Below are positions 3,443-15,515 of a stretch of DNA of 22,897 bases, one piece after another; the stretch's first letter is position 1, and every line of letters begins with the position of its first letter. The translations under genes were made by a program, and so were the position numbers. Below the pieces are notes generated by a model. It made no database searches. It worked only from the letters and a program-made list of their open reading frames with translations, and had not been told where the DNA came from. The DNA is taken from the IMG/VR virus record IMGVR_UViG_3300010354_000705, positions 1-22,897 of that record; one strand, written 5' to 3'. Source of the DNA: a virus.

Positions 3443-3906
3443 TGCAACGTTAGGTTGCCACTGGTTGGCAATGCACCAACCAACGACTGACTCAGCGCAC
3501 GCCCTCCAGGTCTACGCACCGCATCAAGTGGGCTCGCTAACTGCAGCGTCACAAATGACTGGCTGGTGTCATGCTGCACCTGTCGTGATGACCAATACTC
3601 GACCAACAGCAGTGGGCCTAGGGATAGGTCCGAGCGATTGACCTTCACTGAGCGGACTTCCATCAGCCACTCATTGGCAGATGCCTCGGCAAATACATTC
3701 AGGGTCAGTTCGGACACGGGGGCGCCGATTGCAGCCTCTGATCGATCGCCGCCACGGGTGCTGCTATTGGTCGCTACAGCAACTGGCCTGTATGGATACT
3801 CCACGCCGTTGTGAGTGATCGTCTCACCGATAAAGAAGTTCTGGCCCAGCCAGTTGGTGTACGTGCCATTACGACGTTTGAAGCGTATGAAGCTACAGAT
3901 CTCCAT
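3439..3906 (-). CDS. Minor tail protein, gpL/DUF2163-like position
   Basis: This 155-residue protein is encoded directly after the tape measure gene with a 1-nt overlap, and before the NlpC-like gene with a 4-nt overlap. In lambda-type tails this slot holds gpM and gpL, which build the tail tip around the tape measure C-terminus. The phrases VEYPYRPVAVATN and VSELTLNVFAE, and a central LLLVEYWSSRQ region, suggest a beta-rich baseplate-hub-like fold. The end, LDAVRRPGGRALSQSL, resembles the stretch in L/DUF2163 proteins that normally leads into conserved cysteines. Here no cysteine follows, and the only Cys is residue 4, so a metal cluster like that proposed for lambda gpL is unlikely. The function is inferred mainly from position. 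Confidence 0.5.
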   Translation of the reverse strand: MEICSFIRFKRRNGTYTNWLGQNFFIGETITHNGVEYPYRPVAVATNSSTRGGDRSEAAIGAPVSELTLNVFAEASANEWLMEVRSVKVNRSDLSLGPLLLVEYWSSRQVQHDTSQSFVTLQLASPLDAVRRPGGRALSQSLVGALPTSGNLTLQ

Positions 3907-6851
3907 CAGCTGAGGCCTATGGCGCGGCGTGCGGTTGGGTTGTTTTTCAGTCTGCGTTGCGCGAGCTCAGCGCCACGGCTGGCGGATTCACGGCCAATCC
4001 GCTCGGCTTCGTCACGGGTCACAAAATCCATCTCGCCGATGCGGACGGTTTCAAACTTCACGTCGATAACGGCAGAACCACCACCACCACCAGCAGCGGA
4101 GCCAGCATCGCCACCACGCTTGAATGGCACTGCTAGGCCTTCCATTCCACGCTGGAACGGCACTGATAGATTGCCGCCGCTCGTGCTGGTGTTGCCACGA
4201 TCAAACGGCACGCTTAGGCCGCGCAGGCTAGCGTTATTGAGCGCCTCAATTGCAGCGGTGGCCTCAGCAGGGATGATCCGCCCGGCTTGATACGGCACAA
4301 ACAATTCAGGCCCATTCTCGCCAACTGGGTAGGGTTGTCCGGCGGCGACCGGTCCGCCAAGAGCGCGGCCAAAGAAACCACTAACGTCAGGGTTGATTGG
4401 ACCAATGCTGGGCAGCGAATCAACCGGCGTGAAATTTGCGCCAGGTGTGTTACCTAAGGCAAATGCCTTTGCAATACCGATTGCTATGTACTGCGCGATC
4501 ATCCGTTGCGCAGTTTCAAGCAACGCATCAGCAACGCTATTTAGGAACTCTACAAAGACTTCCTCGGCCGACTTCGTACCAGCCACCATCTCTGCCACGC
4601 CCCTAGTGGCCAGGGTTGCGGCAGCATCAGCAGCAGCACCAATCGCTGGGTACTTATCCAGCACCGCTTGCAATGCTGCTTCCTGCTCCTCCAGCTCGTT
4701 ATACACCGTAGGCATAGCTGCCTGTTTGGTAATCTCCATCATCAACCTGGCGCGTTCTTCGTAGATCGCGTTTAGGTCGCGTTCACGCTCAACCAGAGCA
4801 ATACGACTTGCTAGCGTTTCATTTGCGTTAATGAGCGTAATCTCGTCAGCGCTCTTGGCATTCTCTTTCAACTCGGCATACTGCCTAGTGATTTCGGCCT
4901 GTTCCTTCTCGTACTCAAGGATTCGTTTCTTAGCCGGATCGGTCTCCTGCAGAATCGCCAGCTGATCTTTAAGAGCAGCGTTCTGCGCGTCGGCAGCCTT
5001 GAGCTGCTGCTGTATTTGCTCTGTGGCCTGCTGTTGAGCCTGCAGCCCCTCCACCTGCAGCTCGGCCAAACCTTCACCACCACCAGCAAACTGCTGGTAT
5101 CTAGCCAGAACACGGCCGGGATACTCCCTCGATTCTCGGCTGTTGCCGCCAGGTGTCCGCATCTGGGCGCCGGGGCCTTGGTTGTAGGCACGCAGACCGC
5201 CCTCAAGGCCGAACCGGCTGATCTGCTGCCGCAGATACCGCGCTCCACCCATCAGGTTCTGCATGGGGTCGTATGGGTTGACGCCAAGCTCTCGTGCAGT
5301 ACCAGGCATCAGCTGGGCCAGGCCGATAGCGCCAGAACGGCTGACCGCTCGCTGGTTGAAATTCGACTCCTGCGCAACCAGCGCGGCGAACAATGCCGGG
5401 TCGAGGCCGTTAGCCCGTGCTGCAGCGATAATTTGCCGGCCAAAAGGGCGCGAGGCGATCCGATCCTCTGCTGATACCTGACGGGTGCTACCGGTACTCC
5501 CAGCTGTCGCAGCTGCAGCGCCAACAGCACGTCGCCGTGCAGCCTCTCGCTCACCAGCGGCAGCATCTCGCGCCTGTTGCTGAATGGCCGATACACCACT
5601 AGGCGCGGTGGTCCGCTGCTGTTGAAATTGACGAAACAGCTGCTCTTCACGCTGACGGAAAAATGTCTGCCGACCACCAAAATCAAGGAATCCAAAAGGC
5701 CTAGCATTCGTATCTCGTTCGGCCTGTTGACGAGCCCTCAAACGATCTTGAATCGCCTGCTGGGACCCTTGATTTCCACTGAACGCACTAAATGTTTGAT
5801 TGGCAGACTGCAGAGCTGCTGTTACAGCGTTAATTGCCGTGACGGTTGCAGGTCCGAATACACGCGCAAGAGTAATGCCTAGGTTTTCACCTGCAACTCT
5901 TAAATCAACAAGCGCCTGCCTTCCCGTTTTGAATTGATCGTTTAGCTTGCCTAACTGAGTATCATTTAGGCGATTGAGCGCACTTAATACAATGTCTGTC
6001 GTGATTTTGCCTTCTGCACCAAGATTCTTTAGCTCGCCAATCGTTACGCCCATCTCCTGAGCAATAGCTTGTGCCACCAGCGGAGCTTGCTCCCTGATAG
6101 ATCGCAATTCTTCGCCTTGCAGAACGCCAGACGACAACGCCTGTTTAAGCTGCACCAATGCAGCACTTGTTTCTTGTGCTGTTGCACCGCTATTCCTTGC
6201 GGCAGCCGAAAAACCAATAAATGCTTTCTCAATCTCTTCTAGCGTTACCCCAGTTGGGCGCAATGAGGCAAACAAACCAGCAAAGCTTTCTTGAGCTTCA
6301 ATATTGCTAATTCGCAGCGTCCTAGCGATTCGCTCCGTAGCGGCTTGCGCTTCGTTGTACTCTCCAAACTCATTTGTTAGTGCTCTCAACCTTACCTGAG
6401 CACTTTCAGCGTTAAGGCCAACTTGAAATGCTCCAGCTGCTACCGTTCCGGCTTGGGCGGTAAGTGCCCCAGCAATGCCGCCTGCAGCCCCTGCCAGTAA
6501 GGCATTACGGGCAGAAAGCCCGCCGCCTGATCGAGCGGTGCTGTCAAGCCCTTTTAGACGTGCCTCCAGCCGTTGAATCTCAGCCCCATACCGCTGAAAC
6601 TCCCTGCTGCCGATCTTCGCCTGTTCCTGCAGCCCACGAAACGCCGCAACGCTGCTACGAATCCCAGCAATCGTGCTGTCATTAGCTCGGGCAAACTGAA
6701 CCGTTGCAGATCGCAGCGCTCCAATCTCTTTTGCAGAGGTCTGACTACCCTTAGCCAGATCTTGCAAAGACCGCTTCACACGGTCGATATTCCCGCCGCC
6801 CTTCACCTCAGCCGATAGCCGGATTGCGGTATCCAGGCTCATCCGGGCCAT
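3906..6851 (-). CDS. Tail tape measure protein with lytic transglycosylase (SLT) domain
   Basis: This 981-residue protein sets tail length and travels through the tail at DNA entry. Residues 1-110 are helical and charged, typical of a tape measure start. Residues 112-140 are Gly/Ala-rich and membrane-like. Residues about 140-330 match the lambda-type tape measure N-terminal domain ([32 protein letters not shown]). Residues about 455-590 form a Slt domain with catalytic Glu495 in VAQESNFN, then [10 protein letters not shown] at 510-519 and AYNQGP at 555-560. This domain should cut peptidoglycan glycan strands during entry. Residues 595-710 are coiled coil. [12 protein letters not shown] (about 842-853) is the common C-terminal tape measure motif, followed by three VPFxRG repeats. 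The gene starts 29 nt after the GT frame ends. ATG 6851 has only a weak Shine-Dalgarno (GATAAG), and codon 4 is another ATG. Confidence 0.94.
4113..4217 (-). repeat. Three L[SA]VPFxRG peptide repeats in the tape measure C-terminus
   Basis: Residues 879-886 (LSVPFDRG), 895-902 (LSVPFQRG) and 906-913 (LAVPFKRG) repeat one octapeptide at spacings of 16 and 11 residues, just before a poly-Gly stretch. Only the variable position changes (Asp, Gln, Lys). The part of the tape measure nearest the tail tip is usually bound by tip proteins, so these could be docking points. That role is inference. Confidence 0.75.
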
Positions 6852-7671: not shown

Positions 7672-8859
7672 TCAGAAGAAAATCAGGCGGGTTTCGTCGT
7701 TCTGAGTCTTGGGCAGTGCCGTAAACGGAATCTGCAGCATATCGATACCATCCGAGTCGCTGAAACTCAGATCACCACTGATTGCACACTTCGGTGCAAA
7801 GAAAATCGAACTTTCCGCAGCTACAGTGCCTTGCTGCACAACAAACGGGCCATCGCTGGCACCGCTGTTATCAGCCGCAGCGGTAAAGTAGTTCTTTGTT
7901 CCAACCGGCGGGTTTTCGATCGTCAGCGTGCCATTCGGGTTTGGGCGATCGGTGATCCGTGCAGTAGGGCTGCAGCCGATCAAACTACGGAACGTCGTAG
8001 TCAGACCCCAATCAAACGTAAAACCTTCACTGCAGGGACCATAACCCTGGAATCGCAGCGCACGGGTATGGCGCGGCGTAACAGGCAACGGCTCAGACTG
8101 TCCGCCATACGTAAAGCTTTCAGAACCCCTAGCAGTCGGCGGCACATAACGACCGACACCCGTGATCGTAATCGTCCCGTACTGATTCAACGGCCCATTA
8201 AGCGCTGGGCTGCCACGGAATCCCTCAATACGATGCACGTTCTGATCTTTCACTGCAACCAACGTGCAGCTAGAACCATTCCCAAACGTGCTAATCGGCT
8301 GATACAGCGACAGCGCGGGGATTTTGTAAACACTGGTCTGATCAGCCGTAAAACCATCGGTGCTAGGCACCACGGTTACCTCTCGCGTGGTGCCGTTGTG
8401 CGCCACAATCACGCCCTTATTACCCGAACCCGTACCACTGGTGATCTCAATAGGAAATCCTAGATACGCATCACTAGCGGGATTGCTGCCGCCCAGATCA
8501 GCCAGTGTCACCGTATTGGTCCCACCAGCCGTAGCAGTGCCAGTGATCTCAGCAGCCGTGGTCAAATTCATCCCGGCCGCCAGCAGCAACGGCGAAAACC
8601 GTGGCGCAGTACCTGCTACGCCACTGCCACCCCACTCAAATGTAACTGTGACGGCAACGTGCTCATTCGTCAGTGGCTGACGATCCGCGCCAAGAAACCC
8701 CTTAATAATGTTCCGTTGAACACGGTCGCCCGTAATTGGGTTCACCTCCAGCGATGTGATCCTTACCGCATCGCTTGCACCGATACTCCCTACCGGCGTG
8801 CCATAGGCTCCCTCAGCTTTGGCCAGCAGGAAGCTGTTACGAATCAAAAGTGCAGTCAT
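7672..8859 (-). CDS. Major tail tube protein with inserted beta domain
   Basis: This 395-residue protein sits between the tail terminator region and the G/GT chaperones, the slot of lambda gpV. The beginning (RNSFLLAKAEGAYGTPV, then DAVRITSLEVNPI) and the end (FSDSDGIDMLQIPFTALP) are typical of siphophage tube proteins, which stack as hexamer rings forming the DNA conduit. Residues about 104-180 look like a separate beta module (GTNTVTLADLG, AYLGFPIEITSGTGSGNKG, TTREVTVVP). This resembles the ITSGTGAGQ-type modules I recall from other phage structural proteins; here it would plausibly decorate the tube surface. The ATG overlaps the stop of the 51-residue upstream gene by 1 nt (TGATG), indicating coupled translation. 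Confidence 0.83.
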   Translation of the reverse strand: MTALLIRNSFLLAKAEGAYGTPVGSIGASDAVRITSLEVNPITGDRVQRNIIKGFLGADRQPLTNEHVAVTVTFEWGGSGVAGTAPRFSPLLLAAGMNLTTAAEITGTATAGGTNTVTLADLGGSNPASDAYLGFPIEITSGTGSGNKGVIVAHNGTTREVTVVPSTDGFTADQTSVYKIPALSLYQPISTFGNGSSCTLVAVKDQNVHRIEGFRGSPALNGPLNQYGTITITGVGRYVPPTARGSESFTYGGQSEPLPVTPRHTRALRFQGYGPCSEGFTFDWGLTTTFRSLIGCSPTARITDRPNPNGTLTIENPPVGTKNYFTAAADNSGASDGPFVVQQGTVAAESSIFFAPKCAISGDLSFSDSDGIDMLQIPFTALPKTQNDETRLIFF

Positions 8860-9014
8860 CAGCCCTTGGCCTTGGCGACAGATTCAGCGGGCTCAGCCTT
8901 CGCTGGCTTGACAGCCGGCTTAGCTGCTTCACCAGCAGGCACCATCTCTCCAGATGGCAACATCACAAATTCGCCACTCAGGCCGTGATGCTCAAATTGT
9001 GGCTCCGATGCCAT
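8859..9014 (-). CDS. Small 51-residue Ala/Lys/Pro-rich protein, function unknown
   Basis: This short reading frame fills the space between the tail terminator and tail tube genes. It runs from ATG 9014 to TGA 8861-8859, whose last A is also the first base of the tube start, giving a TGATG junction. The product begins MASEPQFEHHGLSGEFVMLP and then turns into a low-complexity tail of Ala, Lys, Pro and Glu ending in AKAKG. The exact stop-start overlap with the tube gene and the lack of any other gene here argue that it is translated. The layout (short folded head, charged disordered tail) resembles the 71-residue protein at 15908-16123. I do not recognise a family. Confidence 0.6.
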   Translation of the reverse strand: MASEPQFEHHGLSGEFVMLPSGEMVPAGEAAKPAVKPAKAEPAESVAKAKG

Positions 9015-9051
9015 AGTGACTGTTGAGCTTCCGCATCTTCAGGCTATGGAG

Positions 9052-9507
9052 TCACGGCAGTTCGTTAATCGCATCATCTTTGGTGCGATACCGCACTAGG
9101 AACCGATGGCCAATCCATCCGGCAGTGGCATCAGCCGGCTCATACTGCGGCGCCCAGCCGTCAGGCTGCACATCATGCGCTAGACCGCCCATGGTGCGAT
9201 CCGCCATCATTCGGGCGTGAATGTCAACGCCGATCGGATCCGCCAGCTGATCAGGCACGTCACCACGAACATAAATCTCGATCAATACCGGCAGCGCCTG
9301 ATCTAGTTTGCCAAGACTGGCGCCAATTGTGCGTGGCGCGTTGACCGGATTATCCTCGCCAGGGCTCACCGTAATCGCTGGCGCTTCAGACCGTGAATAC
9401 GCCTGCGCCCTGCTACGGTAAATCCTGCTGCCAACCTGAACCGTGCCCGGCAACGTCACCGTAGCAATACGGTTCAAAATCTGCTCTCTGATGCTTGGAT
9501 TTGGCAT
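9052..9507 (-). CDS. Tail terminator protein (gpU-like)
   Basis: This 151-residue protein has the pattern of siphophage tail terminators, which cap the finished tube and form the interface to the head. It begins with a helical REQILNRIATV segment. A central beta region (LPVLIEIYVRGD) precedes a helix containing HARMMADRTMGGLAHDV. The end, HRFLVRYRTKDD, is the conserved closing strand of the family. Its position upstream of the tube gene is that of lambda gpU. It starts 6 nt after the preceding stop. The upstream bases give only a weak GATAAG-like ribosome site, similar to that before the tape measure gene. A 37-nt gap separates it from the 51-residue gene. Confidence 0.75.
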   Translation of the reverse strand: MPNPSIREQILNRIATVTLPGTVQVGSRIYRSRAQAYSRSEAPAITVSPGEDNPVNAPRTIGASLGKLDQALPVLIEIYVRGDVPDQLADPIGVDIHARMMADRTMGGLAHDVQPDGWAPQYEPADATAGWIGHRFLVRYRTKDDAINELP

Positions 9508-9513
9508 CGCTTA

Positions 9514-10074
9514 TCACTCACCAGCAGGTGCCAATGCTGCAATGAAATCCATTGGCAGATTGTACTGAATAGCAAATACAGCCATCTCTTCAATTATCGA
9601 AGTAGAGATAACACCCGCTGCCAAAACACGCTGCCATAATTGCAGGAATATCCTTGTATCTCCCTTGCTAGCCTCCGACAACCCAATACTCAGGCCATTA
9701 GCCACGCCTGCAGGAAGCATGTCTAGAAATGAGCTAATACTAGAGCTAGAAATCAGTTCTACGGCAAACGCTAGCCAGTCAGGCTGCGGAGCATGAAGCG
9801 CGTCAAATTCTGCCAACTCCTCTGCTGTAGCCTCTCGCATATCCCATACTTGCGTCCATACACCATCAATCAGCTGCGGTTCAAGTTCAACAGCCCTCAT
9901 CTCACGAGTATCCTCAGGCTTTAGCGATTCAGCCAAAATGTAAACCCCAAACGGCTCTAGATCCTCTGCTGTAAGATTGAAAGGAAAACTTACATTAGGA
10001 TGTGCCGCTAGTAAATCCGATCTTGTGAACGGATACTGCACAATCATTTCGTTCTCAGCAAGGATGTAGGCCAT
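9514..10074 (-). CDS. Two-part accessory protein after the beta-propeller (tail fibre chaperone-like)
   Basis: This 186-residue product has two parts. Residues 1-95 (IVQYPFTRSDLLAAHPNVSF, then DLEPFGVYIL, DGVWTQVWDMREATAEE) follow a pattern seen in small phage proteins encoded next to tail fibres, some annotated as tail assembly chaperones. Residues 97-186 are helical and hydrophobic without charge clusters, with a Ser run (ISSSSISS at 108-115), and could be a small helical bundle; I do not recognise it. The ATG overlaps the beta-propeller stop by one base (TAATG), so the two proteins are translationally coupled and may act together, for example as fibre component and folding partner. This is inference from context; no catalytic motif is visible. 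Confidence 0.55.
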   Translation of the reverse strand: MAYILAENEMIVQYPFTRSDLLAAHPNVSFPFNLTAEDLEPFGVYILAESLKPEDTREMRAVELEPQLIDGVWTQVWDMREATAEELAEFDALHAPQPDWLAFAVELISSSSISSFLDMLPAGVANGLSIGLSEASKGDTRIFLQLWQRVLAAGVISTSIIEEMAVFAIQYNLPMDFIAALAPAGE

Positions 10075-11126
10075 TAGATCAATGCGGAAATCTTGTAGGC
10101 AACAATGAATGGACTAGCCTGCGAACAGACCACCATCGCATTGCCAGACGGTGAAAAAGCGATACCACGTCCGCTAATCACAGCGCCTGATGGCAGCGTA
10201 ATGGGATTGGCTAGTTGATCACCAATCCCATTCCCTAGCCACCGATAAACCCTCAGCGGGATACTACTACTGTTGGCACCAATCGCAAGCAAGTTGCCTA
10301 GTGGTGAGAATGCAATAGAATTAACACCGTTAATCAGCGACGATACACTAGGCGACGGCAAAAAAGAACCAAATCCCGAATTAGACCATGCCGCAATCCT
10401 CAATATCTCTCCTCCAGGTCCACCCCACGCAATAGCATTCCCGCTAGGCGTAAAATCTACAGTTGTTGTCCCGCCAGCACCGGAAGCAAACGGAGTCCCA
10501 AGTACACCAGCAGAAAATGGGTACACATTGATGCCTAAATTTACACCAACAACAGCAACAAAGTTACCATCAGGACTGAAGGTAGTAGTTCTAGTATCTG
10601 AAGTGGTTGAGCTAAAATACGTAGGCGTACCAAATGCAGATCCAGTCCATGGCACTATGCTTATAGGTTTTAACGTTGGAAGGTCAACACCCGTAACAGC
10701 AATATGATTGCCGGATGGCGACACCTTAAGCCCTCGGACATTAGCCAGACCACTTAAAGCAACCGTCTGCCGAGAGCCAAATCCTGTGCTAGATGACCAG
10801 CTATAAGCAAATAACGATGAGTTGCCGCCAACAAATTGAGTCCCTACAATATGCGAACCGTTAGGCGTAAAGTCTATCTGACCTGGGGCCGCACTCGGCA
10901 AAACAGCTGGATTAGCATATCTTGCACCAAAGCCATTGGCAAATGACCACTGATATGCACTGATAAACGGAGAATTGGCGTGTGAAAATACAATCGCATC
11001 ACCAGCAGGAGAAAACGTGATGCTCGTTGGCACACCGCCAGGCAATGGGCTAGGTGGCGCGTAGTTTTCGCCAAAAATCAACCCGTTACCAATCGCTCCA
11101 AATAATGTCTTATGACGATTGATCAC
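10074..11126 (-). CDS. Seven-repeat beta-propeller tail protein (putative receptor-binding)
   Basis: The chosen GTG start at 11126 gives 350 residues. It lies 2 nt after the fibre stop and 8 nt after an AAGGGGAG ribosome site. A longer TTG start at 11177 would overlap the fibre by 50 nt and has no better support. The protein has seven WD40-like repeats, each opening with [FV][ST]PxGN/D: F38, F86, V135, F183, F225, F273 and F324, spaced 42-51 residues apart. Most repeats continue to an aromatic-rich strand and a GFG-type turn. The N-terminal GNGLIFGENYAPPSPLP matches the strand missing from the last repeat, as in velcro ring closure. There is no signal peptide. Next to the long fibre it is probably a distal tail or adhesin component. 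The fold is a confident inference; the ligand is unknown. Confidence 0.8.
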   Translation of the reverse strand: MINRHKTLFGAIGNGLIFGENYAPPSPLPGGVPTSITFSPAGDAIVFSHANSPFISAYQWSFANGFGARYANPAVLPSAAPGQIDFTPNGSHIVGTQFVGGNSSLFAYSWSSSTGFGSRQTVALSGLANVRGLKVSPSGNHIAVTGVDLPTLKPISIVPWTGSAFGTPTYFSSTTSDTRTTTFSPDGNFVAVVGVNLGINVYPFSAGVLGTPFASGAGGTTTVDFTPSGNAIAWGGPGGEILRIAAWSNSGFGSFLPSPSVSSLINGVNSIAFSPLGNLLAIGANSSSIPLRVYRWLGNGIGDQLANPITLPSGAVISGRGIAFSPSGNAMVVCSQASPFIVAYKISALI

Positions 11127-11127
11127 G

Positions 11128-14100
11128 TTACGATCTCCCCTTAGCCGGTATAATCTCGATTGTGTTGCCGCCACCAATCACGCTAATCACTACAGTCTCA
11201 ACCTGTCCAGCTGTTGGCACAAGTGCTGTATTGTCATCCCATTTCACTGTATAACCTGTGTTTCCGCTAAACCACGTAATCACGCCGCTGGTATATGCAA
11301 ATCTAAATGTAGCCTCCCATTCGTAGCCAACCGGGATTGTATTCAGATTAGACAGGTTGATTGTCGTTGCACCGTTAATTGCAGCAGCGGTTACAAACCC
11401 ATTCCCTGTCTGCACATCTAACGTGTAAACACCGCTAACCGCTGTGACAGTTGGTCTAAACTGGCATGTTCCACCATTAGCCACAATCTCCCAACCGGTA
11501 ACAGGTGCGACACCAACGCCTAAACTCGCAAGCTGCACAGCCTCGACGTCAGGCATCAGAGATGCCGGCAGCACCCCAGAGTTATTTAGTCGCGCCAGGC
11601 CGTTCGGTGCATTAACAACCAGATCCAGACGCCTTGAACGGGTCCAAAATCCTTGACTATTGACTGTGCTAGTGTCAACTACTGACAACGGCAGTCCAGC
11701 CGTAACAGTGACATCCGTCAGGAATCGATTGTCACTATAACTCTTAACCGCAAACTGTGTAGGTACAGTATTACCATCGGCTGCGCCCGTAGACGCAATC
11801 AATGACGTATTATTGCTTACCTCTCTAAGCTGCTCACCAACTGTTGAAATGCCACCATTGCGGCTAAACGGACCAATAAAATTCAGTCCAGACAGATTAA
11901 ACTGATCCGTATTGATAGTTACGCTGCCTGTCGTCCCATCAACGCTAAATTGCGTGCCAACCTTAAAATCTCCCTTCTCGTTGGTATTGCTACTGTAAAC
12001 CCTGCCGTTGTTTGTCTCTACAATCGCATTCGCTTCTACCGGTACCCCGCCATTCCAAGGCAGCGCATCATAATTAGTGCCGCTCCCCACAAACTCAAAG
12101 GTGTGGCTAGGAGCGCTAACCTGCGATCGGTTCCTAAAATCTAATCGCTGGCCTTGAGTGATAGGATCTTTAAGGCCTCCATTCAAACCAGAGAAAAATA
12201 CAACTCGATACCCTGCACGGTTGGCCGCATCATTGGCTACAGGTGTACCATTGCTATCAATCGGCACACTGCTAGTAACAATATATGCGCTTGTAGGGCA
12301 TATAAACCTCAGTCCTTCAACAGTTACGCTCCCATTCCCTGCCGGCAGCTGTACCCTCGTTGTAAGCGTTACAACGCCCGTTTCCTTGTTATAAACCGCA
12401 TTGGCTACACCATAATCAGTACCACCAATGACGGCACTGCCGCCACTAACGTATTCGTGCTCAGGGCCAGCAGGAGCAGAGGTTTCCGTATAAGTGAGCG
12501 TAAAATTTCCGGTCCTTGTGTAAGAAAAACTCTTTGCTTCTGCTAACTCAGTGCTAGCATTCCTGGGGAATATCAGCTGTGGGAACATCAGCTGACCGGC
12601 GTTAGGCCGCGATGACGAATCGCAAATAAAACTTAATCCTGACAGCGTTACGCTATCTCCAACCGTTGGTGCATACCCTGTAGCCGTTAAAACAGTTACA
12701 CCTGTTGTTTTGGTGTAAACAGCACTTAGAATAGGATAGCTAACGCCATTTACAGTTACACTTCCCCCGCCTACATATTCATGGCCTATGCTGCTAGTCG
12801 CTAACGTCACCGTAAATGTGCTGCCGGCAGCGCTACCGCCTCTCGCACTAACCTGAACAGGATTTCCGGCACTCCCTACACTTCCAGCCGTAGGATATTT
12901 AATCTGACGGCCTAAACGATTGGCACTAAACCCGATAACATCAAGCTCAGTAACACCCTGCCGCACAAATTCATAAGTTCCTGTAGCACTACCGCCAATA
13001 TCTAAAGCCGCGCCACCAGCAGATGTGCTAACCTTGAATGCATCAGCTGTCAATCCACTGCTAATGACATAATAAACCGTATTAGCGGCTAAGTTTGTAG
13101 GCAGATCGCCTTCGGTAGCCTTAAACGTAATCTGATCGCCTACGCTCAGTGTGTGCGCAACGCAGCTAAACGTATCTGTAGAAACGTTAATCGTTACACT
13201 ACGCTGCACCCTCGGCGCGCCATAAGCCGCAACACGCGCACTGCCAGTAAACAGAGGGCTGCGGCTGTAGCCATCGGCCATAAGACCGTAAACACCAAAA
13301 TCGGTAGTTCCACCACCACTTAGGTTTACTTGGCCGCCGGTCTCAGTGCGGACGTGATAGGTGCAAAATGTCCCAAAGAACGACACCAGCTGTGCATAGC
13401 CGTCGTTCAACACTAGGCAGCCAGGCCCGCCTAGATTCACCTGCGTATAACTGTCCACCACCATTGAGCGGATTGGGCTATTGGCAGCACACTTGCTACC
13501 ATCAACCCGAATACCACCACCTGTATTACCAGTAGACTGCGAACCCGCTAGACCGCCATCATCCTCAGCCGTAATGCTTGTGCAATTCTGGATATAAGGT
13601 GACTTGAGGATAAAAGCACCCAACCCAATAGCGCCGCGTGCTGTATTATCAGCCAGCTCATCAAAATCTATCGCCCATGATTGCCGAGTCTCATCAGCTT
13701 GATGCCCAGCAAACGATAATCCCCAACACCAGAAACCAGAATCTAACTTGAAAATGTCCTTAAACTCCTGACCCGCTGCAGGCTGGACAATAGTGCTCCG
13801 CAACCCGCTACCAAACACCGTAACATCATATTTCCAACGAATCGGCAGCAGCGCTTCTACATAAGTGCCAGGAGAAACCAGCACCACATCTCCAGGCTGT
13901 GCAGCTAATGCAGCAGCGCCTAACGTACGCAATGGCTCGGCTAGACTCGTTCCATTGTTGCCATCATTCCCGGTAAGCGATACATAGATTTTTCGCGCAT
14001 CACGTATCTGTGTTATCAGCCCCGCAATAGCCGCCGCCGCTGCACCGGCATTCTCCTTGCCATCAAGCGCTTCAATTAGTCCACTAATTGTGCTAATCGC

Positions 14101-14370
14101 TTGCTCGCCAGTATGATTCGCTCGGTTTCTTAAGAATGAATCACTGGCATTTGCTGTCGCATTAGCTGCTATGCCAGCTAGCTTCAGCACCTGCGCAACT
14201 GTCATTGCGCCACGATTACTATTTGTTGCGTCCGGCAGCGTTTGCGCAATCTGTTGCGCGCTACAATCCTTGGTCAGACCAGCGTCAAGATCATCAATCG
14301 CTACCCGCTCGGCTCCACTGAGCGGACCAGCCGCATCAGCCAAACCGGAAATAGTGGTTGTTTCATCCAT
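11128..14370 (-). CDS. Large tail fibre protein with beta-helix-like and repeat domains
   Basis: This 1080-residue protein reads as a mosaic fibre. Residues 1-100 form an attachment region ending in NRANHTGEQA, a motif common near the N-terminus of tail fibres. Residues about 125-385 (KIYVSLTGNDGNNGTS, PGDVVLVSPGTYVEALLPI) resemble the pectate-lyase-like right-handed beta-helix start found in tailspikes. Residues 391-468 form a TVYYVISSGLTADAFKVSTS module. Two tandem repeats, about 515-583 and 617-691, share HEYV-GG and end in GLxFIC. Residues 757-840 (NGRVYSSNTNEKGDFKVGTQ) recall cyanomyovirus structural proteins. The C-terminal 130 residues form a separate beta-rich unit. No catalytic residues can be assigned, so polysaccharide depolymerase activity is possible but not shown. 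The ATG 14370 start lacks a clear ribosome site. Confidence 0.85.
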   Translation of the reverse strand: MDETTTISGLADAAGPLSGAERVAIDDLDAGLTKDCSAQQIAQTLPDATNSNRGAMTVAQVLKLAGIAANATANASDSFLRNRANHTGEQAISTISGLIEALDGKENAGAAAAAIAGLITQIRDARKIYVSLTGNDGNNGTSLAEPLRTLGAAALAAQPGDVVLVSPGTYVEALLPIRWKYDVTVFGSGLRSTIVQPAAGQEFKDIFKLDSGFWCWGLSFAGHQADETRQSWAIDFDELADNTARGAIGLGAFILKSPYIQNCTSITAEDDGGLAGSQSTGNTGGGIRVDGSKCAANSPIRSMVVDSYTQVNLGGPGCLVLNDGYAQLVSFFGTFCTYHVRTETGGQVNLSGGGTTDFGVYGLMADGYSRSPLFTGSARVAAYGAPRVQRSVTINVSTDTFSCVAHTLSVGDQITFKATEGDLPTNLAANTVYYVISSGLTADAFKVSTSAGGAALDIGGSATGTYEFVRQGVTELDVIGFSANRLGRQIKYPTAGSVGSAGNPVQVSARGGSAAGSTFTVTLATSSIGHEYVGGGSVTVNGVSYPILSAVYTKTTGVTVLTATGYAPTVGDSVTLSGLSFICDSSSRPNAGQLMFPQLIFPRNASTELAEAKSFSYTRTGNFTLTYTETSAPAGPEHEYVSGGSAVIGGTDYGVANAVYNKETGVVTLTTRVQLPAGNGSVTVEGLRFICPTSAYIVTSSVPIDSNGTPVANDAANRAGYRVVFFSGLNGGLKDPITQGQRLDFRNRSQVSAPSHTFEFVGSGTNYDALPWNGGVPVEANAIVETNNGRVYSSNTNEKGDFKVGTQFSVDGTTGSVTINTDQFNLSGLNFIGPFSRNGGISTVGEQLREVSNNTSLIASTGAADGNTVPTQFAVKSYSDNRFLTDVTVTAGLPLSVVDTSTVNSQGFWTRSRRLDLVVNAPNGLARLNNSGVLPASLMPDVEAVQLASLGVGVAPVTGWEIVANGGTCQFRPTVTAVSGVYTLDVQTGNGFVTAAAINGATTINLSNLNTIPVGYEWEATFRFAYTSGVITWFSGNTGYTVKWDDNTALVPTAGQVETVVISVIGGGNTIEIIPAKGRS
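11135..11142 (-). promoter_or_regulatory. Ribosome binding site of the beta-propeller gene
   Basis: AAGGGGAG on the minus strand lies 8 nt before GTG 11126, inside the last codons of the fibre gene. It is one of the strongest Shine-Dalgarno sequences in the window and decides the start in favour of GTG 11126 over TTG 11177. Confidence 0.8.
12298..12522 (-). repeat. Fibre internal repeat, second copy
   Basis: This encodes fibre residues about 617-691. Shared landmarks with the copy at 12622-12828 are HEYVSGGS against HEYVGGGS, AVYNKETGVVTLT against AVYTKTTGVTVLT, and the closing GLRFIC against GLSFIC. DNA identity between the copies is clearly lower than protein similarity, so the duplication is old or was acquired in parts. 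Confidence 0.75.
12622..12828 (-). repeat. Fibre internal repeat, first copy
   Basis: This encodes fibre residues about 515-583, the first of two tandem beta domains, from SAAGSTFTVTLA-type strands to GLSFIC. I recall the same kind of module from T4-like cyanophage structural proteins, but no search was possible here. Confidence 0.75.
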
Positions 14371-14420
14371 ACCGGCAGTGTATGGATGGCAGCCCGATTA
14401 ACAGGCCTGACCCTTGCCAG

Positions 14421-15182
14421 TTACTTCGCCCTCATCACCTCCAGATCGTCAAAGTCCACCACGTACTGATGCTGGGGGTTGTTGGATTTGTAGATCCCGA
14501 ATTTGATCCGCCAGCTCTCTGAGTTGCGAGGCGACTGGCACCGCGCTTTATCGCTGCCATAGGGCCCTCGATACTGCCCGACCTGCTTCCCGTCGAGCTT
14601 GACCACCAAAGAGCCGCTGGAGTCCCTTGCCGGCTGCAGAGCCAGCTCTACGCGATGCCACCGGCCGGGTATAAGCTTCTGCTGGGCAATAACAGGTGTC
14701 TTGCTGTTCTCTGAGCGCACGATCCAATCCACCTCATGGCTTGTTCCTTGGACAACGCGCATCCCAGCGATCGGGCTCAGCGGAGAACACTGCCAGATCT
14801 GCAGGGGATAGAACATCTGGCCTTTGGCGTGGACCGGCGCCCGCTGGGGAATCCTGATGCGGTAGCTGATGGTGTAGGACTGCCCGAACCGCAGCATCGG
14901 GGTGTAGGCCAGTTCAGTGCGATCGTTGCCGCCACCCTTCGATTGTTTGGTGGTGAACCGGATGTATGGGTCGCCGTTGTGTTTCAGGATCTGAGGGGCA
15001 AAGCCTCCATGCTCACACTTTCCGGCTAAACGTTCACGGTTTTCGACATAGTTCGCGCCGGCACCGATCTTCGCTGAACAATACTCGGAATTGATTAACC
15101 GGCCGTCGCCCGTCATCTGCACCACCGGTGCAGCCATGGCCGGCGTTGCAGCAAGGATCGCGGCTAGAATCAGAGGCCTCAT
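14421..15182 (-). CDS. Secreted polysaccharide-lyase-like jelly-roll protein
   Basis: This 253-residue protein begins with a Sec signal peptide (MRPLILAAILAATPAMA, likely cleaved near residue 17-18). That is unusual inside a phage structural operon. The mature part has the landmarks of the heparin-lyase-I-like/PL7/PL20 jelly-roll group (Polysacc_lyase): GGNDRTEL at 84-91 with Arg88, YPLQIWQCSP at 125-134, and KFGIYKSN at 227-234 leading to VDFDDLEV at 242-249. These enzymes cleave uronic-acid-containing glycans by beta-elimination. Four Cys at 35, 56, 132 and 215 would allow two disulfides in an exported protein. A strong ribosome site precedes ATG 15182. The gene lies between the head-tail joining and fibre genes with about 50-nt gaps on both sides, as expected for an inserted moron. 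Substrate and activity are unproven. Confidence 0.8.
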   Translation of the reverse strand: MRPLILAAILAATPAMAAPVVQMTGDGRLINSEYCSAKIGAGANYVENRERLAGKCEHGGFAPQILKHNGDPYIRFTTKQSKGGGNDRTELAYTPMLRFGQSYTISYRIRIPQRAPVHAKGQMFYPLQIWQCSPLSPIAGMRVVQGTSHEVDWIVRSENSKTPVIAQQKLIPGRWHRVELALQPARDSSGSLVVKLDGKQVGQYRGPYGSDKARCQSPRNSESWRIKFGIYKSNNPQHQYVVDFDDLEVMRAK

Positions 15183-15233: not shown

Positions 15234-15515
15234 TTACAACTTCTCCAGCACCATCACACAGAAACGCCCATCAGCCAGCCTCAACGGCTCATGCTGCAGC
15301 TTGTAAGTCTGACCCTCATGCTGCACCTGGTCGCCATACTGCAACCCGCCAAACTGGTCTGTACGTACCGTCAACGCATAGTCAACCGTAACCACCTGAT
15401 CATTCATAATGATCTGGCTGGCACGATCCATAAACCCCAAACCAACAACGGCCCCAGCAGTTACGCTGGAGCCGAAGTCAGCTAGCAGGAAATCATCGGG
15501 GATCTCCTGGATCAT
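15234..15515 (-). CDS. Head-tail joining protein (FII-like)
   Basis: This 93-residue protein contains FGSSVTAGAVVGLGF, then a central VDYALTVRTDQFGGLQYGDQV and a closing strand GRFCVMVLEKL. This is the small beta-barrel pattern of lambda FII-type head-tail joining (phage attachment) proteins, which sit under the portal and accept the tail. The GDQVQHEGQTYKL turn is especially typical. It starts 2 nt after the preceding gene's stop. It is the last conserved head gene before the accessory cassette. Assignment rests on size, position and these turns. Confidence 0.65.
   Translation of the reverse strand: MIQEIPDDFLLADFGSSVTAGAVVGLGFMDRASQIIMNDQVVTVDYALTVRTDQFGGLQYGDQVQHEGQTYKLQHEPLRLADGRFCVMVLEKL

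Follow-up and report, generated by a model that had tools for sequence, protein, structure and literature searches.

A fixed site for exchangeable adhesin genes between the head-completion and tail terminator genes of probable freshwater cyanosiphophages

Why should a phage encode a fibre, a beta-propeller and a chaperone-like protein between its head-completion and tail terminator genes? The question is raised by a viral record of 22,897 bases, classed as linear and analysed here in full (the window), whose minus strand displays a lambda-like head-tail gene order from the small terminase to a truncated J. Small terminase, large terminase, adaptor-like protein, portal, protease-capsid fusion protein and two small proteins precede the FII-like gene; the block under study follows, and then come tail terminator, major tail protein, tape measure and truncated J. 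The initial annotation had interpreted the block as an exchangeable host-surface module, with its own enzyme and chaperone, inserted into the lambda-like order. All of the open reading frames that it named were recovered on the minus strand at the coordinates given below.

15234..15515, minus strand: FII-like head-completion (stopper) protein, 93 aa (PF05354; alignment with the solved R4C stopper and relatives)
14421..15182, minus strand: polysaccharide lyase-like protein with Sec signal, 253 aa (PF14099, E 8e-13)
11128..14370, minus strand: fibre, 1080 aa (PHROG tail fibre matches)
10074..11177, minus strand: seven-bladed WD40-like beta-propeller (Pfam WD40)
9514..10074, minus strand: two-domain fibre-assembly-chaperone-like protein, 186 aa (phrog_4998)
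9052..9507, minus strand: tail terminator, conserved right flank (phrog_4204, E 9.2e-29)

Both proposed flanks were confirmed, the right by the phrog_4204 match and the left by a match to Pfam Phage_attach (PF05354) of 28.8 bits, above the curated cut-off of 26 (E 1.9e-6). No Z-like gene was recognised between them. Genes of the block had been described as mostly coupled. This holds for the fibre, propeller, 186-aa and terminator genes, which are separated by overlaps or a 6-nt gap, but not for the lyase gene, which has spacers of 51 nt upstream and 50 nt downstream. Promoters and terminators within the block showed no excess over chance. GC3 is 0.42 in the fibre gene and 0.38 in both the propeller and 186-aa genes, versus mostly 0.5-0.65 in the flanks. 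Given this shared low GC3, the three genes constitute, by composition, one block that was exchanged together.

Scans with the capsid protein and the tail terminator yielded 72 loci (nearly all at 72-85% identity) and 80 loci, respectively. Pooled, they gave 71 complete FII-to-terminator intervals, 39 of them distinct, including those of the window and of the isolates S-LBS1, S-CBS1 and S-CBS3. None of the 71 was empty, and the three isolates have the site occupied likewise. Metagenomic relatives have intervals of 2.2-5.9 kb; that of S-LBS1 measures 4.0 kb, and those of S-CBS1 and S-CBS3 0.6 kb each. The tail terminator of relatives is mostly 75-91% identical to that of the window, while interval contents differ: alternative cassettes encode other fibres, LamG lectin-like proteins, members of the widespread unclassified family phrog_17104 or, in L036, a long repeat-rich protein. 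Because the site is never without a cassette and cassettes are swapped, the locus is a fixed adhesin position with variable contents rather than an insertion. The gene-order comparison called for by the initial annotation thus revealed the expected swapping of contents but no block-free relatives, and insertion into a lambda-like order must be given up, as every complete relative carries a cassette at this site. Exchangeability itself is upheld by the conserved flanks, the swapped contents and the presence of a dedicated assembly factor, and we regard an exchangeable adhesin locus as very likely. Adhesin genes at this position are already visible in the S-CBS and S-LBS1 genomes. Relatives with longer contigs (L158 and L159) also have large fibre genes after J, indicating that the usual fibre locus is used as well; the window stops inside J, before any post-J fibre position.

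Several other features were observed among the relatives. By eye, a cassette protein of L050 and L073 looks like a C-type-lectin adhesin. A DGR-like or reverse-transcriptase system serving these proteins was considered and rejected, as the genes past the L050 copy are T4-like capsid genes. In L050 and L051, head genes of the lineage and a fibre cassette are joined to T4-like capsid genes (gp21 protease, scaffold and gp23); these contigs are either assembly chimaeras formed at a shared adhesin gene or a sign that cyanomyophages and siphophages share adhesins. Extra inserts of 1-1.8 kb, possibly homing-endonuclease-like, lie amid core head genes, between portal and capsid in L013, L022 and L039 and between TerL and adaptor in L049 and L065.

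Taken as a whole, the locus is probably best explained as an adhesin locus, with exchangeable contents, of probable freshwater cyanosiphophages. The FII hexamer ring would carry a short C-terminal repeat peptide as the docking site for the fibre N-terminus, and docked fibres would thereby project from the neck. The propeller would serve as a second adhesin binding sugar or receptor, and the 186-aa protein as the cognate fibre-assembly chaperone. In the window, a Sec-exported polysaccharide lyase would have been inserted at the FII-fibre junction, replacing the peptide.

Residues ~1-42 of the fibre form a shared N-terminal anchor, here termed type b, and residues ~946-1080 form a C-terminal domain that has a gene of its own in L071. 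The window fibre is 79-81% identical to those of the nearest cassettes and has partial matches to fibres in 159 phage records, of which 119 bear the name Synechococcus phage; by these matches the fibre resembles those of cyanophages. No T4gp10-like docking domain was found among its Pfam or PHROGs matches.

Evidence for docking comes from the FII C-terminus. Alignment with the R4C stopper showed that the window FII stops at the core (CVMVLEKL, then stop), the same end point as in R4C, and that FII of relatives with a cassette has 13-45 extra C-terminal residues. In these relatives the FII gene extends to a few bases short of the fibre start, the junction that the lyase fills in the window. Four tail types were distinguished. 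Type a (ending TTLSGLRITTLDNRQLRIL) is paired with fibre N-terminus MAETTITGLPNATTPLDGTERVPMDQ, type b (ending PIQTLSQQPIVTL) with MTQPTTISGLPDATGPLTGAERVPIDD, the fibre type of the window, type c (ending GVFEAGVFV) with MTLNLTRRLVKGTPLTAAEHDGN, and type d (ending VVLDGDWL) with a fibre N-terminus containing NPVLLEGE. The alignment places the left seam of exchange inside FII, with the core belonging to the backbone and the C-terminal tail travelling with the fibre; by the same comparison, the window has lost its tail. In an 11-locus group the tail is truncated by a nonsense change that leaves SPQPTPI, and both the tail-less FII of the window and the truncated FII of this group (that of L040-L042) go with the fibre-propeller type of cassette. 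In L040-L042, L063 and L094 the change is CAG to TAG and the coding sequence beyond it is still conserved in several contigs, reflecting either recent loss or readthrough. L361 encodes an FII homologue (3543-3989) with a long tandem-repeat tail containing GDRLTTLSGDRLVILEGDYLATISGDRLTTVSGDYL, which suggests that type-a tails lengthen through repeats.

Tail and fibre types are closely matched. Over 43 distinct combinations, fibre N-terminal similarity correlated with tail similarity at r = 0.88 and with FII-core similarity at r = 0.06, and none of 2000 permutations reached the observed partial tail-fibre correlation. In a census of all ORFs of the collected loci, type a was represented by 15 distinct tails and types b and d by 4 apiece, all of which stood only ahead of the corresponding fibre type; for type c, with 28 distinct tails, automatic matching succeeded for 26, and the remaining pair (L290 and L291) precede type-c fibres as judged by eye. 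No mismatched pair occurred in this census, and since the loci were collected partly via the fibre N-terminus, which biases the counts, this lack of crossed pairs is the informative part. Fibres of types a (L317, L341 and L368), b (L313, L314 and L316) and c (L280, L281, L284 and L273) also occur without a visible tail-bearing neighbour. Among isolate phages, type-a fibres gave two distant matches only, and the genes upstream of these lack a clear type-a tail.

Linkage by itself can make sequences on either side of a recombination seam co-vary: recombination would break in the conserved FII core, and a functionless FII end would travel with the downstream genes. Mosaic phages often recombine within the conserved ends of genes, and two fibre-propeller groups live without a full tail. 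Four observations nonetheless make linkage alone rather unlikely. First, the same tail motifs occur on unrelated carriers ahead of the same fibre type. A type-c tail ends a protein with a polysaccharide-lyase-14 (PL14) domain that follows a tape-measure-like gene in L293 (2754-4004, in a contig where core genes of the lineage were undetected) and adjoins the fibre gene; in L290 and L291, type-c tails sit on mini-proteins of ~40 aa after tail proteins. The next gene in all three encodes a type-c fibre, and none of the three carriers matches FII. A type-a tail similarly ends an unrelated 166-aa protein in L329. Second, type-c tails keep the protein motif V-F-x-x-G-V-F while drawing on all four valine codons and several glycine codons, such freedom at synonymous sites implying that constraint acts on the protein. 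Third, R4C, which has no cassette at this position, has no tail, which we count in support of a docking peptide. Fourth, the distant S-LBS1 retains a matched pair (type c) although its FII is only 43% identical to that of the window.

On this evidence we lean towards the FII tail being a docking peptide within the lineage, which suggests that the fibres of this locus are located at the neck. Since the window FII lacks a tail and that of the 11-locus group is truncated, we can only infer docking for the window itself, and whether it still operates there is doubtful; the tail may be dispensable for this fibre type. More broadly, the chances are about even that a portable docking code exists, in which C-terminal repeat peptides of virion proteins would specify the class of fibre N-terminus that attaches, and peptide-plus-fibre modules would be exchangeable and movable between virion sites. 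Under such a code, these cyanosiphophages would use a neck protein, the FII-like stopper, as the carrier, and different phages would use different virion proteins. Each element has precedent (PMC6872550, PMC10966104): receptor-binding loci that vary, anchors at the N-terminus, fibres on the neck, and receptor-binding proteins docked through peptides. We found no description of matched tail-fibre pairs with the stopper as carrier in the literature searched, most subscription journals being outside its scope. If the tail is a docking peptide, the attachment site of a fibre, now guesswork in uncultured phages, could be read from sequence; the jumping of receptor-binding modules between unrelated phages, and between neck and tail, would be explained; and an abundant freshwater virus group would be predicted to bear neck fibres.

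The lyase is distinct from the rest of the block. As initially described, it is a signal-bearing, lyase-like protein: PF14099 matched residues 68-242 at 49.2 bits (cut-off 29.9), and a Sec signal, MRPLILAAILAATPAMA-A, is visible at the N-terminus. The family was detected in one of 50 records searched, the window itself, and was absent from the 49 related records. Searches of viral contigs, phages, plasmids and, by exact-peptide scans, GTDB genomes found no relatives, and PDB yielded no sequence match. A single-sequence AF2 model, made as a check for a jelly-roll fold, had a pLDDT of 38.6. The gene occupies the place of the relatives' FII tail at the FII-fibre junction, and its GC3 (0.71, versus 0.38-0.42 in the fibre, propeller and 186-aa genes) indicates that it arrived separately, as a singleton insertion between FII and fibre. 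An enzyme as an integral part of the module is thus not borne out, the lyase being confined to the window, of its own composition and interrupting the junction. It is probably an exported accessory enzyme, and the balance tilts towards it being off the particle, most likely as a soluble enzyme acting in the periplasm or envelope, or after lysis, rather than as part of the virion. A virion-bound depolymerase that clears host glycan for the fibre would fit its position directly before the fibre gene, and L293, an unrelated phage contig, places its tailed PL14-domain protein in just that position. This role is nevertheless unlikely for a protein that has a clear Sec signal, lacks any fibre-like or docking segment, and is a singleton of its own composition.

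The combination of lyase and tail-less FII could also be an assembly artefact of a single metagenome contig, as it occurs in no other record and possibly chimaeric contigs (L050 and L051) lie nearby in the lineage. We judge this improbable, because reading frames are open on both sides, the lyase lies on the same strand, and no direct repeat of at least 7 nt was found at its junctions. That the block encodes fixed structural proteins of neck or tail with no role in adsorption would account for its constant position beside connector genes, but is highly improbable and already contradicted by the swapping of contents, LamG lectin-like proteins and cyanophage-fibre homologues included, between close relatives.

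The propeller matched Pfam WD40 at 27.7 bits (cut-off 27), with seven repeats counted by eye on the translation. The TTG at 11177 falls within the fibre gene. In relatives the propeller begins at the codon that stops the fibre gene, and a position near 11127 is probably the true start in the window. The family is widespread (about 380 candidate stretches in one scan), and its genes often precede one for a coiled-coil-like 88-aa protein, followed by a chaperone N-domain. Relatives carry propellers with near-identical blades, to which the diverged window copy is 38-39% identical. Examples are the seven-blade propellers of L042 (8712-9752) and L072 (5133-6170), built of blades of 46-47 aa. The L042 gene is overlapped in another register by an open frame of 351 aa (8731-9786), which arises from the DNA repeats and could mislead gene callers. 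Within a propeller of a relative, the 46-residue blades are near-identical save at positions 16, 18, 34 and 35; at these, 65-84% of blade pairs differ, compared to 48% for four-fold third positions. Variability above the level of four-fold sites suggests diversifying selection on ligand-facing blade loops. Binding of the propeller to the cell surface is fairly likely, and lyase and hypervariable propellers together point to surface glycans as the contested target.

A chaperone within the block, as originally proposed, is supported by fold and domain structure. The 186-aa protein has an alpha/beta N-domain (1-95) and a helical C-domain (96-181). Its AF2 model (pLDDT 94.6) had as best BFVD match a phage tail assembly chaperone (E 1.3e-9); nothing significant emerged when the model was compared with PDB folds, the helical domain scoring only weak, middling Z values. 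The protein has no Pfam match, and its C-domain differs from the C-terminal PF16778 domain. Profile searches detected the N-domain in L237, which has PF16778 at 96-151. By sequence, then, the N-domain is that of tail-fibre assembly chaperones, with a different helical domain in place of the usual PF16778, and domain swaps among relatives support the two-domain make-up. Given the shared N-domain and fold, we expect it to work in chaperone-like fashion outside PF16778 membership, and consider a fibre chaperone likely.

TerL is 61% identical to that of the Lake Bourget phage S-LBS1. Because of this and the predominance of Synechococcus phages among fibre relatives, the host is probably a freshwater picocyanobacterium and the lineage probably one of freshwater cyanosiphophages. 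A prophage-based assignment was discarded: the sole genome match was a short capsid fragment on a 3.8-kb contig of an Actinomycetota MAG, probably misbinned. S-LBS1 (PMC6157547), S-CBS1 and S-CBS3 share with the window homologous head and tail genes and a lambda-like order in which fibre genes separate head completion from terminator. They differ in that their capsid proteins are 35-37% identical to that of the window, and their FII-terminator intervals showed no recognisable lyase or propeller. Roseophage vB_DshS-R4C (PMC10276861; stopper PDB 8GTF) has a related protease-capsid fusion protein (37%), adaptor and stopper; its major tail protein gene, however, directly follows the stopper gene, and its fibres are at the baseplate.

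Three further systems bear resemblance to parts of the locus. In A-1(L), a phage of cyanobacteria, a fibre N-terminal domain docks on a neck protein (PMC10966104). A-1(L) is a myophage with a dedicated 15-mer neck ring, its neck-fibre genes (gp80-82) are numbered far from its neck genes (gp5 and gp7), and the sugar-binding module of its neck fibre failed to bind its host (PMC10966104). Klebsiella phage anchor-branch systems (PMC6872550) similarly use short conserved peptides for modular attachment of exchangeable receptor-binding proteins, but in those phages the second receptor-binding protein carries the peptide at its N-terminus, with a T4gp10-like domain as the presumed binding partner, while in the present lineage the peptide is at the C-terminus of the upstream protein. 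The near-identical blades of the window's relatives resemble repetitive WD40-like propellers amplified from single blades (PMC9218822), the best PDB match being 2ymu, a WD-40 repeat protein, with the difference that those of the lineage lie in a phage adhesin block and show blade-loop hypervariability, and that the window copy has diverged. Elsewhere in the window, residues ~417-740 of the tape measure protein (3906-6851) have endolysin/transglycosylase-like PHROG matches.
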